A DNA stretch of 64,000 nt. Source: Streptantibioticus ferralitis (GTDB lineage Bacteria > Actinomycetota > Actinomycetes > Streptomycetales > Streptomycetaceae). How positions within the stretch are numbered: the stretch's first letter is position 1; every line of letters starts with the position of its first letter. The stretch is from contig NZ_JARHTQ010000013.1 in NCBI RefSeq assembly GCF_029223525.1, positions 62,001-126,000 on the forward strand, read 5' to 3'. This document shows, one piece after another, positions 25,413-31,593 of the stretch. Made by a program: the position numbers and the translations under genes. Under the pieces are notes generated by a model. It was not told the origin of the DNA. It did no database searches and saw only the letters and a program-made list of their open reading frames with translations.

Positions 25413-26450
25413 TTACTTTCCCTTGCCGGCGTGGCCGCTGGTATGGCCACCGTTGCGGTTGTCGTAGGCCTCGTAGGCGTCCACGATCCGGCCGACCAGC
25501 TTGTGGCGGACCACGTCGGTGCTGGTGAGCCGGGAGAAGTGCACGTCCTGGACGCCGTCCAGGATCTCCACGACCTGCCGCAGCCCGCTCTTGGTGCCGC
25601 CGGGCAGGTCGACCTGGGTGATGTCACCGGTGATGACGATCTTGGAGTCGAAGCCGAGGCGGGTCAGGAACATCTTCATCTGCTCGGCGGAGGTGTTCTG
25701 CGCCTCGTCCAGGATGATGAAGGCGTCGTTGAGGGTGCGGCCGCGCATGTAGGCGAGCGGGGCGACCTCGATCGTGCCGTTCGCCATCAGCCGCGGGATC
25801 GAGTCGGGGTCGATCATGTCGTGCAGCGCGTCGTACAGCGGGCGCAGATACGGGTCGATCTTCTCGTAGAGCGTGCCGGGCAGGAAGCCGAGCCGCTCGC
25901 CCGCCTCGACCGCGGGCCGGGTCAGGATGATCCGGTTGACCTGCTTGGACTGCAGCGCCTGTACGGCCTTGGCCATCGCCAGGTAGGTCTTGCCGGTACC
26001 GGCCGGGCCGATGCCGAAGACGATGGTGTGCTTGTCGATCGCGTCGACGTACCGCTTCTGGTTGAGCGTCTTGGGGCGGATGGTGCGACCGCGGGTGGAG
26101 AGGATGTTCTGGGTGAGGACCTGTGCCGGGGTCTCCTCGAGACCGTCCGGTCCGCTGTCCTGCCGGAGCATGGCGATCGACCGCTCCACTGCGTCCTCCG
26201 TCATGGGCGCGCCGGTGCGCAGCACCAGCATCATTTCATCGAAAAGGCGCTGCACCAACGCGACTTCCGCCGCGTCTCCGGCAGCGCTGACCTCGTTGCC
26301 ACGGACATGGATGTCCACGGTCGGGAACGCCCGCTCGATCACGCGCAGCAGCGAGTCACCCGATCCCAGGACAGTGACCATGGGGTGCTTGGCCGGTACG
26401 ACGAAATGTGCGCGCGCCTGCGGTTGCTGCTGCGTGGGTGTCTGTGTCAT
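25413..26450 (-). CDS. phoH: PhoH-like ATPase
   Basis: 345-residue cytosolic P-loop ATPase of the PhoH family, often co-encoded with YbeY and likely to act on RNA. Walker A GPAGTGKT near residue 145, followed by the family segments [18 protein letters not shown] and the Walker B-like [10 protein letters not shown], then [12 protein letters not shown] small N-terminal nucleic-acid-binding-like segment (residues ~20-90) precedes. No clear ribosome site before ATG 26450. First gene of the phoH-ybeY-corC-like unit. Confidence 0.95.
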
Positions 26451-26573
26451 GGGCTCGGCTCTGCGGCCTGCGTCCCGCTTCCGTACTCGACATGCCTGTT
26501 AGGGCCTGGGGTTCAAGGGTACGACGGGTCGGGGGCAGGCCCGAGAGGTTTTCCGCCCCGATTCCCGGACCGC

Positions 26574-26873
26574 TCAGGCCGCCCGGCCGCGCAGGGTGAG
26601 GGCGGCGCCACGCAGGTCGGTCTTGTGCGAGCGGATGCCGCGGACCAACTCGGCCATGGCTCCCGCCGGGGGAGAGATCGGCTCGCCCGACTCCTCCAGG
26701 TACATCCGGGCACACGCGGCGCCGACCGCCGCGTTGCCGTCCTCGAACGGTTCGAGCAGCGACATGCTGTGCAGCAGGGCCGCGGCCCGTGTCGCCGCCT
26801 CCTCGCAGTACGGGTAGTACGGCTCGTTCGCGAAGCGCTCGAAGGCGTGTCGCTCGGCTGTTTCGGGGCTCAC
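26574..26873 (-). CDS. Degenerate Fic/Doc-like small protein
   Basis: 99-residue protein whose core RAAALLHSMSLLEPFEDGNA matches the Doc/Fic catalytic region (Doc proteins read LLHSI...HPFxDGNKRT), followed by an ACARMYLEESG helix like that of Doc toxins. The catalytic histidine is replaced (LEPF instead of HPF) and the Lys-Arg after GN is missing, so AMP or phosphate transfer is doubtful. Its GTG overlaps the stop of the upstream PfkB kinase (GTGA), coupling translation; no Phd-like antitoxin gene is present. Function unknown; a regulatory partner of the kinase is one possibility. Confidence 0.6.
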   Translation of the reverse strand: MSPETAERHAFERFANEPYYPYCEEAATRAAALLHSMSLLEPFEDGNAAVGAACARMYLEESGEPISPPAGAMAELVRGIRSHKTDLRGAALTLRGRAA

Positions 26874-27955
26874 ATCTGCCGGAACCCGATCGTCGGCACC
26901 GCGCGGCGCAGTGGCCAGGGGCGGGCGCCGGTGGGCAGCAGGTCGTCCAGGAAGGCGTAGCGGCGCAGGGCGCTGCGGTCCTGGTCGTCGTACTGCTTGG
27001 CGTGCTGCCACCAGGCGGCGACCTCGATCCAGCCGGGTGCGGAGAGCGACCCGCCGAACTCCTGGACGGACAGGGCCGCGGTCAGGCTGGCGAAGGCGAG
27101 CCGGTCGGTGAGCGGCCAGTCGGCGAGCGTCCCGGTGATGAACCCGGCCACGAAGACATCACCGGCGCCGGTCGGATCGAGGGCGTCGACAGTGAGCGCG
27201 GGCACCTCCGCGGCCTCCCCGCTGGACGAGTCAACCGCGTACGCACCCTCTTCGCCCAAAGTGACGACCGCCAGCGGCACCAGTTCGGCGAGCTTGCGGG
27301 CGGCACGGCGCGGGCACTCGGTACGGGTGTAGCGCATGGCCTCTGCCGCGTTGGGCAAGAACGCCTCGCAGTGCCGCAGGTCGGTCAGATCATGGGGGTC
27401 CCAGCGCCCGGAGTCGTCCCACCCGACGTCGGCGAAGATCCGGCTGCCGTACCGGGCCGCGTGCCCGATCCACTCCTCCCGGCGGCCCGGGCTGAGGGAG
27501 GCCACACAGGCTCGGGCGGGCGGCGGGCACACCGGTGCGGGCTCCTCGGGAGGCGGCGCCTCATGGCCGTGGCTGACCATGGTCCGTTCGCCCTCGTACG
27601 CCATGGAGACGGTGACGGGCGAATGCCAGCCCGGCACCCTGCGGGACAGCGACAGCTCGATGCCCTCGTCATGCTCCAGGCTCTCCCAGCAGTAGTCGCC
27701 GTACATGTCGTCGCCGAACGCCGCCGCGAGGGAGGTGTGCAGGCCCAGCCGGGCGAGCGCGGTGGCCATGTTGGCCACGCCCCCGGGGCTGGAGCCCATC
27801 CCGCGGGCCCAGGACTCGGTGCCGCGCACCGGCGCGCTGTCCAGGCCGGTGAAGATGATGTCGAGGAACACGGTGCCGGTCAGATACACATCGGTCGCCG
27901 GGTCACCCGGGGCGCGGACCGCGGCGAGCGGGTCGAGGACGGGTTGGTCTGCCAC
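26870..27955 (-). CDS. PfkB-family carbohydrate kinase
   Basis: 361-residue sugar kinase of the ribokinase fold. It has the N-terminal GSSPGGVANMATALARLG substrate/ATP motif and the C-terminal PfkB signature DALDPTGAGDVFVAGF with the catalytic Asp and anion hole. The GTG at 27955 follows GGAAGGAG. It is divergent from a GH4 glycosidase, so both may act on one sugar route, and it is coupled to the Fic/Doc-like ORF. The substrate is not readable from sequence. Confidence 0.9.
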   Translation of the reverse strand: MADQPVLDPLAAVRAPGDPATDVYLTGTVFLDIIFTGLDSAPVRGTESWARGMGSSPGGVANMATALARLGLHTSLAAAFGDDMYGDYCWESLEHDEGIELSLSRRVPGWHSPVTVSMAYEGERTMVSHGHEAPPPEEPAPVCPPPARACVASLSPGRREEWIGHAARYGSRIFADVGWDDSGRWDPHDLTDLRHCEAFLPNAAEAMRYTRTECPRRAARKLAELVPLAVVTLGEEGAYAVDSSSGEAAEVPALTVDALDPTGAGDVFVAGFITGTLADWPLTDRLAFASLTAALSVQEFGGSLSAPGWIEVAAWWQHAKQYDDQDRSALRRYAFLDDLLPTGARPWPLRRAVPTIGFRQM

Positions 27956-28145
27956 CAGTGGCTCCTTCCGGCGGACGCGTGATCGCGTGTTGCACACTGT
28001 GCCCCAGGACATCGGGGGACGCGGTGAATGCAGCATTACAGGACGCGCAGCCGGTACGCCGCATCCGCGGCTGCCTGGCCGCACACGGCATACTCGCCCG
28101 CACCTGCCGCCTCGGGGCGGAGAAGCGATTCCAGAGGGAGGAAGC

Positions 28146-29465
28146 GTGCGGCTGACGATTCTCGGCGGTGGGGGATTCCGCGTCCCGCTGGTGTACCGGG
28201 CCCTGTTCGCGGAGCCGGGATCGCCGGGCGCGGTCAAGGAGTTGGTGCTCTACGACACCGACCATCAGCGGCTGTCCGTGATCGCCTGCGTACTGGCCGC
28301 TCAGGCGCACAGCGCACCCGGCGCGCCCATCGTGCGGATCGCCCAGGGGCTGGACGACGCGCTGCGCGGCGCGGACTTCGTCTTCTCCGCGATCCGGGTG
28401 GGCGGTATGGCGGGCCGGGTGTGCGATGAGCGGATCCCGCTGGACGAGGGCGTGATCGGCCAGGAGACGGTCGGCGCGGGCGGGGTGCTGTACGGGCTGC
28501 GCACGCTGCCGGTGGCGGTGCACATCGCCGAGCGGGTGCGGGCCGTGGCACCCGACGCCTGGGTGATCAACTTCACCAATCCGGCGGGGATGGTGACCGA
28601 GGCGATGCAGCGGGTCCTCGGCGAGCGGGTCGTCGGCATCTGCGACTCGCCGGTGGGCCTGGTGCGCCGGGCGGCGCGGGCGGCGGGCGTCGACCCGGAC
28701 GCGGTGAGCTACGACTACGTGGGGCTCAACCACCTCGGCTGGCTGCGGCGGTTGGAGTCGGGCGGCCGGGATCTGCTGCCGGAGCTGCTGGCGGACCCCG
28801 CGGCGCTGGGGTCGTTCGAGGAGGGGCGGCTCTTCGGGGCCGAGTGGCTGGGAGCGCTGGGCTCGCTGCCCAACGAGTACCTGCTCTACTACTACTTCAC
28901 CCGCGAGACGCTCGCCGCGGCCCGCGCCGCCGCGGCCACCCGGGGGGAGTTCCTCGACCGGCAGCAGTCGGAGTTCTTCGCGCAGGCGGGCGCCGACTCC
29001 TCGAAGGCGTACGAGCTGTGGGAGGCGACCCGGCTGGAGCGCGAGGAGATGTACATGGCCGACGCCCGCGCGGCGACCGGCGGTTGGCAGCGGGACGCCG
29101 CCGACCTGGAGGGCGGCGGATACGACCGGGTGGCGCTGGCGCTGATGCGGGCGATAGCCCGCGGCGAGCGCACGCAGTTGATCCTCAACGTCCGCAATGG
29201 CACGGCCCTGCCGCTGCTCGACCCCGACGCGGTGATCGAGGTGCCGTGCGCGGTGGGTCCGGACGGTCCCCGGCCGCTTCGGGTCGCCGCGCCGGACGCG
29301 CATCAGGCGGGACTGATGCTGTCGGTCAAGGCGGCCGAGCGCGCCACCATCGAGGCGGCGGCGACCGGTTCGCGCACCGCCGCACTGCGCGCGCTGGCGC
29401 TGCACCCGCTGGTGGACTCGGCGGCGGTGGCCTCGCGCATCCTGGACCGGGCGGGGATCAGCTGA
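28146..29465 (+). CDS. GH4 family 6-phospho-glycosidase
   Basis: 439-residue NAD+- and metal-dependent glycosidase that cleaves phosphorylated disaccharides by a redox mechanism. Seen: the N-terminal Rossmann motif LTILGGGGFRVPLVYRAL, the conserved GQETVGAGG loop, the metal ligands Cys and His in VVGICDSPVGL and VGLNHLGW, and INFTNPAGMVTEA. It is closest to the 6-phospho-beta-glucosidase type. GTG 28146 has a GGGAGGAAG ribosome site. Its 3' end overlaps the convergent HAD-GT20 gene by 8 bp. No PTS genes are nearby, so how the substrate is phosphorylated is open; the divergent PfkB kinase is a candidate. Confidence 0.92.
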   Translation: MRLTILGGGGFRVPLVYRALFAEPGSPGAVKELVLYDTDHQRLSVIACVLAAQAHSAPGAPIVRIAQGLDDALRGADFVFSAIRVGGMAGRVCDERIPLDEGVIGQETVGAGGVLYGLRTLPVAVHIAERVRAVAPDAWVINFTNPAGMVTEAMQRVLGERVVGICDSPVGLVRRAARAAGVDPDAVSYDYVGLNHLGWLRRLESGGRDLLPELLADPAALGSFEEGRLFGAEWLGALGSLPNEYLLYYYFTRETLAAARAAAATRGEFLDRQQSEFFAQAGADSSKAYELWEATRLEREEMYMADARAATGGWQRDAADLEGGGYDRVALALMRAIARGERTQLILNVRNGTALPLLDPDAVIEVPCAVGPDGPRPLRVAAPDAHQAGLMLSVKAAERATIEAAATGSRTAALRALALHPLVDSAAVASRILDRAGIS

Positions 29466-31593
29466 CCTCGCAGTCGGCCGCCGCCGCGCCCAGGCCGACC
29501 GCCGAGGGGTGCCGGGCGGCCCGGCCGTCCTGGTCGGGGCGCTGGATGGCGCTGACGATCCTGGCCGCCCAGTCCGCGGGATGATCGTGGCCGAGGAGGC
29601 GGGCCAGGTGCGCCAGGCGGGTACGGCGTTCCGCCGGGGCGAGCGCCAGGGCCCGCCGCAGGACCTCGACCAGGTCCTCGGGTGAGCGGGGATCGGTGAA
29701 GAGCGCCGCGGAGCCGAGTTGCGCGGCGGCACCCGCGTACCGGGAGAGCACCAACACTCCGCAGCGGCCCGCGGCGGCCTGGGCGGCCTGGGCGGCCTGG
29801 GCGGCGATGAACTCCTTCGCGGTGAGGTTCATGCCGTCCTGCAGTGAGGTCACCCAGAACACGTCGGCGGCGAGGTAGTGGTCGACCAGTTCGGCGATGG
29901 GCAGACTACGGGGCAGGTACTCGACGGGCCGCCAATCACCCGTGCGCCAGGCATCGTTGACCTCGGCTACGCGCTGTTCCAGTGCCCGCCGGGTCGCGTC
30001 GTAGGCGGTGATGCCGGGTTCGGGGGGCGGGCACACCAGCCGGAACCGCAGGCGTCCGCGCAACTCCGGGCAGCGGCCGAGCAGTGCCGCGACGGCCTCG
30101 ACCTTCTGCACCGGGGCCTTGGCATAGTCCAGGCGCTCGACGGAGAGCACCAGCGGCCCGTCGATCGGCTGATGGTGCGGCATCCGCGCCCGGGCCAGCG
30201 CTTCGACGGCGTCACGGTCGATGCCCAGCGGATGCACGCCCAGCCGCGGTGGCCGAGGGGTGCCCGCCAGGGTCTGCCGGAAGTGCTCGGCGAAGTCGGT
30301 GGTGTGGAATCCGGCCCAGTCCAGGCAGCCGAGCGAGGCGCGGATCTCCGGGGCGGTGGGCAGCGCGGCGAAGATCTCCGGCGGCGGGAACGGGGTGTGG
30401 TGGAACAGCCCCAGCCGCAGGTCGGGGCGGGTCGGGCGGAGCATGCCCGGCACCAGCCACAGGTTGTAGTCGTGCAGCCAGACGGTCGCGCCCGGGGCCG
30501 CGATGTCGCTGATGTGGTCGGCGAACCGCGCGTTGACCGCCCGGTAGGCCGCCCAGGCGGCCGGATCCGGGCGCAGCCGCTCCGGCTGGCTCATCAGCAC
30601 CGGCCACAGCGTCTCCTTGCAGGCCCGGTGGAAGTACCCGGCCCACTCGGCGGGGCTCAGCCGCAGGAAGGACAGGGGCAGCCCGGTGTTGTGCCCGTCG
30701 AGACGGGCCGCCGGGACGTCCTGCCCGAGGACCGCGGCGGCCGCCCACACGGCCCGCAGGTCTCCGGTGAACATGCCGCGCAGGGTGGGCAGGATGCCGT
30801 TGGGGCTGGACGGTTCCTGCCAGCCGCCGGGCGTCCAGCGCACCGGCGGGCGGTGGTAGCCGACCACCAGCGGGTATCGGCGCTCCACCCAGCCGAGTTC
30901 CTCAAGCGCCGCCAGGATCCCGGCCGCCCCCGGCCGGTCGGACCGCGAAGTGCTGCCGCCGGGCGGTACCGCCGCGAGCAGTGCGGGCTCGGCGTTGCCG
31001 ACGATCACCCCGTGTGCGCCGAGTCGGAACAGCGACAGGTCGTTGAGGGAGTCGCCCGCGACCAGGATCGAGGTCATCGGCCAGTGCCGCTCGCGGGCCA
31101 GGGCCGCGAGGGCACTGCCCTTGCCCGCACCCGGCGGCAGTACGTCGAAGTAGCGGTCCGCCGAGTACAGCCACCCGCACCCCAACTCCACCACGGCGTC
31201 GGTGATCTCGCGCGTCAACCGCTCGGGGCGCAGGTAGAACGAGCAGCGGCCGTCCTGGGCCGCCCCGTCCTGGTAGGTCAGCTCCGGGAAGCGGCGCAGC
31301 GCGGCACGGATCCGATCCGCGCCGGGCCAGCCGGCCCGTAATCCCCGCTGCAGCGGCTCGACCGGCGCCAGGTCCGTACCGTCGATCACGCTCGCGCCGA
31401 CGTCGGCGATGATCCAGCGCGGCCGCGGCACCAGTGGGTCCCGCAGCGCCGCGCGCACCGAGGGCAGTCCGCGGCCGGTCGCGAAGACCACCGTCACCTC
31501 CGGATGGCGGTCCAGAGCGGCACGCAGGCTGCGCCGGTCGGCCTCGCCACCCTCCAGGAGCGTGCCGTCCAGGTCGGCGACCAGGATCTTCAT
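29458..31593 (-). CDS. HAD-GT20 fusion, probable glucosylglycerol-phosphate synthase/phosphatase
   Basis: 711-residue fusion. Residues ~1-230 form a HAD phosphatase (DLDGTLLEG, ATGRG, PPGAGKGSAL, AGDSLNDLSLF); residues ~235-690 form a GT20 synthase. The order (phosphatase first) and GT20 motifs HDYNLWLVP, FHHTPFPPPEIF, SVERLDYAKAP and LQDGMNLTAKEF resemble glucosylglycerol-phosphate synthases such as cyanobacterial GgpS and the Azotobacter GgpPS fusion; trehalose-6-phosphate synthases instead read HDYHLL and FLHIPFP. Predicted to make the osmoprotectant glucosylglycerol from ADP- or UDP-glucose and glycerol-3-phosphate. A 9-bp tandem repeat (29771-29803) encodes AAQAAQAAQ. Confidence 0.85.
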   Translation of the reverse strand: MKILVADLDGTLLEGGEADRRSLRAALDRHPEVTVVFATGRGLPSVRAALRDPLVPRPRWIIADVGASVIDGTDLAPVEPLQRGLRAGWPGADRIRAALRRFPELTYQDGAAQDGRCSFYLRPERLTREITDAVVELGCGWLYSADRYFDVLPPGAGKGSALAALARERHWPMTSILVAGDSLNDLSLFRLGAHGVIVGNAEPALLAAVPPGGSTSRSDRPGAAGILAALEELGWVERRYPLVVGYHRPPVRWTPGGWQEPSSPNGILPTLRGMFTGDLRAVWAAAAVLGQDVPAARLDGHNTGLPLSFLRLSPAEWAGYFHRACKETLWPVLMSQPERLRPDPAAWAAYRAVNARFADHISDIAAPGATVWLHDYNLWLVPGMLRPTRPDLRLGLFHHTPFPPPEIFAALPTAPEIRASLGCLDWAGFHTTDFAEHFRQTLAGTPRPPRLGVHPLGIDRDAVEALARARMPHHQPIDGPLVLSVERLDYAKAPVQKVEAVAALLGRCPELRGRLRFRLVCPPPEPGITAYDATRRALEQRVAEVNDAWRTGDWRPVEYLPRSLPIAELVDHYLAADVFWVTSLQDGMNLTAKEFIAAQAAQAAQAAAGRCGVLVLSRYAGAAAQLGSAALFTDPRSPEDLVEVLRRALALAPAERRTRLAHLARLLGHDHPADWAARIVSAIQRPDQDGRAARHPSAVGLGAAAADCEVS

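Follow-up and report, generated by a model that had tools for sequence, protein, structure and literature searches.

A gene in a 64,000-nucleotide stretch of Streptantibioticus ferralitis DNA (the window) raises the question of what is made when a HAD-IIB phosphatase is fused in front of a GT20 glycosyltransferase. This family holds the trehalose-6-phosphate synthase OtsA, the glucosylglycerol-phosphate synthase GgpS and the bifunctional synthase/phosphatase GgpPS. The gene lies on the minus strand (29458–31593) and encodes 711 amino acids. On balance it is probably a bifunctional glucosyl-phosphate synthase/phosphatase of the GgpPS type, with glycerol 3-phosphate as the most likely acceptor and glucosylglycerol as the most likely product. 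Taken alone, glucosylglycerol has about an even chance of being what is formed, which makes it the likeliest product, with a related glucosyl-polyol as a serious alternative. The GT20 half would use a nucleotide sugar to glucosylate a small phosphorylated acceptor (most likely glycerol 3-phosphate) in a retaining reaction, and the HAD half would remove the phosphate to release a neutral alpha-glucoside, most likely glucosylglycerol. The domain order, the intact catalytic residues of both halves and the GgpS-type sequence and tree position are direct observations; from the protein we infer the reaction, its donor and acceptor, and any role in compatible-solute synthesis.

The open reading frame (ORF; P0001) runs from an ATG at 31593 to a TGA at 29458, the span given in an initial annotation of the sequence, which had left the strand unstated. 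HAD-GT20 fusion homologues in other actinobacteria (58–81% identity) share its start and length, and it is therefore a gene rather than a chance ORF of GC-rich DNA; the opposite, plus strand contains in-frame stops over the same interval. A scan for a promoter and terminator found none. Pfam places an S6PP domain, of the sucrose-phosphatase type, at residues 2–231 (6e-47; 30901–31590, this and all following protein features being on the minus strand), followed by Glyco_transf_20 (4e-75). The GT20 domain, of GT-B fold, spans residues ca. 240–684 (29542–30876) according to Pfam, AlphaFold and Foldseek. The HAD-first, GT20-second order read in the initial annotation is thus confirmed, and it is the order described for bifunctional GgpPS (PMC10873239). 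The HAD catalytic residues (DLDGT, T39, K158 and GDSLND) are all kept, being invariant or near-invariant across 39 proteins of the fusion's own clade and GgpPS, and the GT20 donor and nucleotide contacts R262, K267, D361, N364, E369 and H154 (E. coli OtsA crystal numbering, used for all residue mapping) are likewise retained. An AlphaFold model built with 39 relatives as input has both halves well formed, with a mean predicted local distance difference test score of 86.8.

Comparison with characterised enzymes brings the protein closest to GgpPS. BLAST aligns it with Azotobacter vinelandii GgpPS collinearly from end to end (431 bits, 38% identity over 757 columns), as against 173 bits for E. 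coli OtsA and 127 bits for the OtsA of the same genome. Each half taken alone retains the resemblance, with 43% (HAD) and 36% (GT20) identity to A. vinelandii GgpPS. The HAD half is 40–49% identical to GgpPS HAD domains and 35–41% identical to separate GgpP, while the GT20 half scores GgpPS and GgpS above nearly every OtsA tried, the ranges overlapping in one OtsA-OtsB fusion (220 bits) and one GgpS (213 bits, from Tistrella). According to the title of Sievers 2013, as cited in PMC6753628, glucosylglycerol synthesis was established in potato with the A. vinelandii gene. With the GgpPS of Azotobacter, Stenotrophomonas, Pseudomonas and Marinobacter the protein shares domain order, full-length collinearity, GgpS-type motifs and two intact catalytic sites. 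Three motifs, HDYNLW (residues 374–379; 30457–30474), FHHTPFP (397–403; 30385–30405, including the donor-binding H399) and ERLDYAKAP (486–494), had been proposed as diagnostic, and all three are present. The first two carry N377, W379 and H398, which are invariant in GgpS, GgpPS and the fusion's clade and absent from OtsA rows; the third is of no diagnostic value, E. coli OtsA having VERLDYSKG.

Phylogeny of the GT20 domain supports the same separation. In a tree of 90 rows OtsA, GgpS, GgpPS and the clade of the fusion protein (the HAD-GT20 clade) each come out whole, and in a tree of 44 rows OtsA is split from the other three at 100/99. Clustering with OtsA, which the initial annotation had named as the outcome that would overturn it, is not seen, and the approximately unbiased (AU) test rejects a grouping of the HAD-GT20 clade with the streptomycete OtsA rows (p = 0.011). 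The nearest partner of the clade is less clear (71/23; AU p 0.16 with GgpPS and 0.35 with GgpS) and, given this support and a root placed by midpoint only, the clade could be sister to GgpS and GgpPS together. GgpPS rows form a clade of their own (98/96) which excludes the HAD-GT20 clade. On this phylogeny the fusion protein is placed on the GgpS side and is not an OtsA, yet it falls outside the characterised GgpPS clade, in a third, purely actinobacterial clade which appears old and much changed. The preference for GgpS/GgpPS over OtsA in the initial annotation is borne out by both halves, the domain order and the tree, and its interpretation is right as to family; as to glucosylglycerol as the product, it is probably but not certainly right.

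The acceptor pocket narrows the chemistry further. Contact roles of Arg9, Arg262, Lys267, Asp361, His154, Glu369 and the Arg300 equivalent are taken from PMC3441724. Arg9, an acceptor-phosphate contact, is kept in the fusion protein as R248 (30850–30852), as is Trp85, as W330. Trp85 and Tyr76 of OtsA are contacts of glucose 6-phosphate. Near W330 stands K326 (30616–30618), a GgpS-type signature residue which is mostly Asn in OtsA, and H247, N265, E327, N377, W379 and H398 are also of the GgpS type. The Arg300 position, where OtsA has its phosphate-binding acceptor contact (Arg in 22 of 22 OtsA), is Ala, Ser or Asn in all 23 GgpS and GgpPS and Glu in 44 of 45 HAD-GT20 clade rows (E525 here; 30019–30021). 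This pattern, with Arg300 lost and Arg9 and the GgpS-type residues kept, indicates that the acceptor is very probably phosphorylated and not glucose 6-phosphate; glycerol 3-phosphate is a likely candidate for it.

A number of observations weigh against a straightforward GgpPS making glucosylglycerol. At 1.47–1.72 changes per site, the HAD-GT20 clade has a stem that greatly exceeds the stems of GgpS and GgpPS. The GgpS equivalog model TIGR02398 gives 288 bits against a curated cut-off of 569. Only 14 of the 25 columns that distinguish GgpS/GgpPS from OtsA are matched; of the 9 columns that mark OtsA, 2 are. One loop, 50 residues long throughout the GgpS and GgpPS rows, measures about 16 in the clade (ca. 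34 fewer). Two acceptor-site changes run clade-wide, Arg300 to Glu and Tyr76 to Phe; the latter position is Tyr in all OtsA, GgpS and GgpPS rows and Phe in 43 of 45 clade rows (F321 here; 30631–30633), while the adjacent residue changes in the opposite way, which makes a one-residue register shift possible. In addition, the conserved neighbour of the fusion gene is a PfkB-type kinase gene rather than one for glycerol-3-phosphate supply, and no GlgC over cut-off is encoded in the window genome. The separate clade with its long stem, the shortened loop, the two substitutions and the frequent upstream kinase are what set the protein apart from GgpPS. Overall the protein is best read as a new actinobacterial form of GgpPS-type enzyme, with a hint of a changed acceptor.

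The kinase bears most directly on the strongest alternative, namely that the chemistry is the same and the acceptor is a different phosphorylated compound (polyol, sugar, cyclitol or nucleoside), often made by the upstream PfkB; the glucosyl-polyol released might then serve as a specialised metabolite instead of a salt solute. This has an appreciable, though minority, share of the probability. Substrates of PfkB kinases are sugars and nucleosides, not glycerol. The gene (for example L062:10654-11643) is found 25–370 nt upstream on the same strand at 18 of the 44 distinct loci, including those of the deep-branching Actinokineospora and Embleya members, and the kinases, one of which is WP_331741673.1 of Kitasatospora sp. 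NBC_00039, are 53–79% identical to one another. Where it is not adjacent it appears to be missing altogether, the orthologue being absent genome-wide from all 22 kinase-less holders tested, with both kinase-bearing control genomes scoring. Its presence maps onto the tree as 9 changes, with 19 rows having it and 24 lacking it. Model scores place ribokinase nearest (94/300 bits), from which the substrate cannot be read. Such a kinase does not fit an acceptor drawn from ordinary glycerol 3-phosphate, and ordinary glucosylglycerol pathways are without one. The clade-wide substitutions, the shortened loop, the patchy occurrence and the megaplasmid location in several strains also favour another acceptor. 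Against it, the GgpS-type Lys326/Glu327 pair and Arg9 are kept, and over half of the holders, including the window genome (no orthologue, best match 34%), lack the kinase and must therefore get their acceptor phosphate from elsewhere. A three-step actinobacterial pathway of PfkB kinase, GT20 and HAD, derived from a glucosylglycerol pathway by re-tooling of the acceptor pocket and leading to an undescribed alpha-glucoside whose acceptor is a phosphorylated polyol, sugar or nucleoside, with some lineages including that of the window kinase-less, is a tentative proposal of minority probability. The two acceptor-contact changes and the kinase operon together offer a direct route to the identity of the acceptor. 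Near the fusion gene no conserved osmotic-stress, glycerol or glucosylglycerol-degrading gene was found across the HAD-GT20 loci, the PfkB kinase being the only recurrent close neighbour.

The donor of the GgpPS-type reaction is a related question, since Synechocystis GgpS requires ADP-glucose (PMC6004087). GlgC over cut-off is also absent from 23 of 29 distinct holders of the fusion gene, and the GgpPS carriers A. vinelandii CA and Stutzerimonas KOS6 likewise lack it, so that its absence is not decisive against GgpS activity. With GlgC missing from the window genome and from most holders, UDP- or GDP-glucose is a more likely donor than ADP-glucose in the window genome; that the two GgpPS-carrying proteobacteria lack it too leaves the donor sugar of GgpPS in question more generally. 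PMC5247666 reports GDP-glucose use by streptomycete OtsA. The OtsA of the 8.8 Mb window genome (C25:122583-123983) falls in a streptomycete OtsA clade that is itself very divergent (stem above 2 changes per site), in line with that reported use.

The presence of this separate OtsA is one of several points against a trehalose-6-phosphate synthase/phosphatase with swapped domain order, a reading that is very improbable. The protein shares with OtsA the GT20 fold and the nucleotide and donor contacts, and Foldseek matches its GT20 part in the PDB to OtsA/Tps1 structures only (E about 1e-30); a PDB sequence search found no solved GgpS, and these matches are therefore not informative on GgpS versus OtsA. 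None of the NCBIfam GT20 models reaches its cut-off, the OtsA-OtsB fusion model PRK14501 (300 bits) scoring slightly above GgpS, both far under cut-off, and OtsA giving 276 of 565. Against this, OtsA is set apart in the trees, Arg300 is replaced by Glu, and the HAD half is of the SPP/GgpP rather than the OtsB type. A VldE/ValL-like pseudoglycosyltransferase for C7-cyclitol coupling, of the same GT20 family and known from Streptomyces (PMC3441724), is more improbable still, as similarity to VldE is barely detectable (a short stretch of ca. 27 bits, where OtsA reaches 175 bits in the same PDB sequence search), the OtsA-like nucleotide contacts are kept and the loci hold no recurrent cyclitol gene cluster.

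Accounts of how streptomycetes cope with osmotic stress usually centre on ectoine, trehalose, proline and betaine. With a GgpPS-type enzyme in roughly one in seven of the taxonomic family's sampled genomes, this repertoire would gain either a glucosylglycerol-like solute or a new glucoside. The initial annotation expected the automatic label to be trehalose-phosphate synthase; the NCBI pipeline instead names three homologues 'HAD-IIB family hydrolase', a label which hides what is probably a GgpPS-type enzyme. A literature search, outside which most subscription papers fell, found no paper on glucosylglycerol synthesis or GgpPS in streptomycetes, nor on glucosylglycerol with Kitasatospora. One passing statement holds that actinomycetes make glucosylglycerol (PMC10513789). 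The Micromonospora osmolyte ABAGG was considered and set aside, being a different compound that is no glucosylglycerol.

Separate GgpS and GgpP, as in cyanobacteria, Dinoroseobacter and Falsirhodobacter, share with the window gene the HAD and GT20 pairing and the YHR, SPNG, HDYNLW and FHHTPFP motifs; the window gene differs in being fused, in scoring below the TIGR02398 cut-off and in having no glycerol-3-phosphate dehydrogenase neighbour. Outside actinobacteria, the first hits in plasmid records are the annotated ggpS genes of Dinoroseobacter and Falsirhodobacter; each lies in an operon behind a HAD gene and a gene for glycerol-3-phosphate dehydrogenase. The GgpS cut-off is passed in only 2 of 297 genomes of the phylum; L032, from another actinobacterial lineage, has a canonical GgpS of 675 bits together with a separate GgpP-like HAD gene.

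In the window, the fusion gene lies between an adenosine deaminase gene and a PhoH-PfkB-GH4 block (25413–29465), with PfkB at 26870–28084 (minus) and GH4 at about 28167–29465 (plus), the latter convergent with the fusion gene and overlapping it by 8 bases. This PfkB is not the operon kinase (33–34% identity, against 53–79% among true partners). A functional tie to the window GH4 and PfkB was also rejected, since the block is conserved in many genomes without the fusion gene; the block is ancestral and kept elsewhere without it, and these neighbours hence provide no evidence of function.

The HAD-GT20 clade comprises at least 44 distinct loci, all actinobacterial, from Kitasatospora, Streptomyces, Streptantibioticus, Embleya, Saccharothrix, Actinokineospora, Frankia, Protofrankia and Nocardia, several of them on megaplasmids. 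In an even draw of the host's taxonomic family the gene occurs in 42 of 299 genomes and 6 of 17 genera. Homologues with GT20 only were considered as a second architecture and mostly proved to be frame breaks or alignment gaps in the linker. L197, on a complete chromosome, has genuinely lost the HAD half internally, what is left of the HAD start running straight into GT20; the clade member of Nocardia pseudobrasiliensis (L103) also lacks this half.

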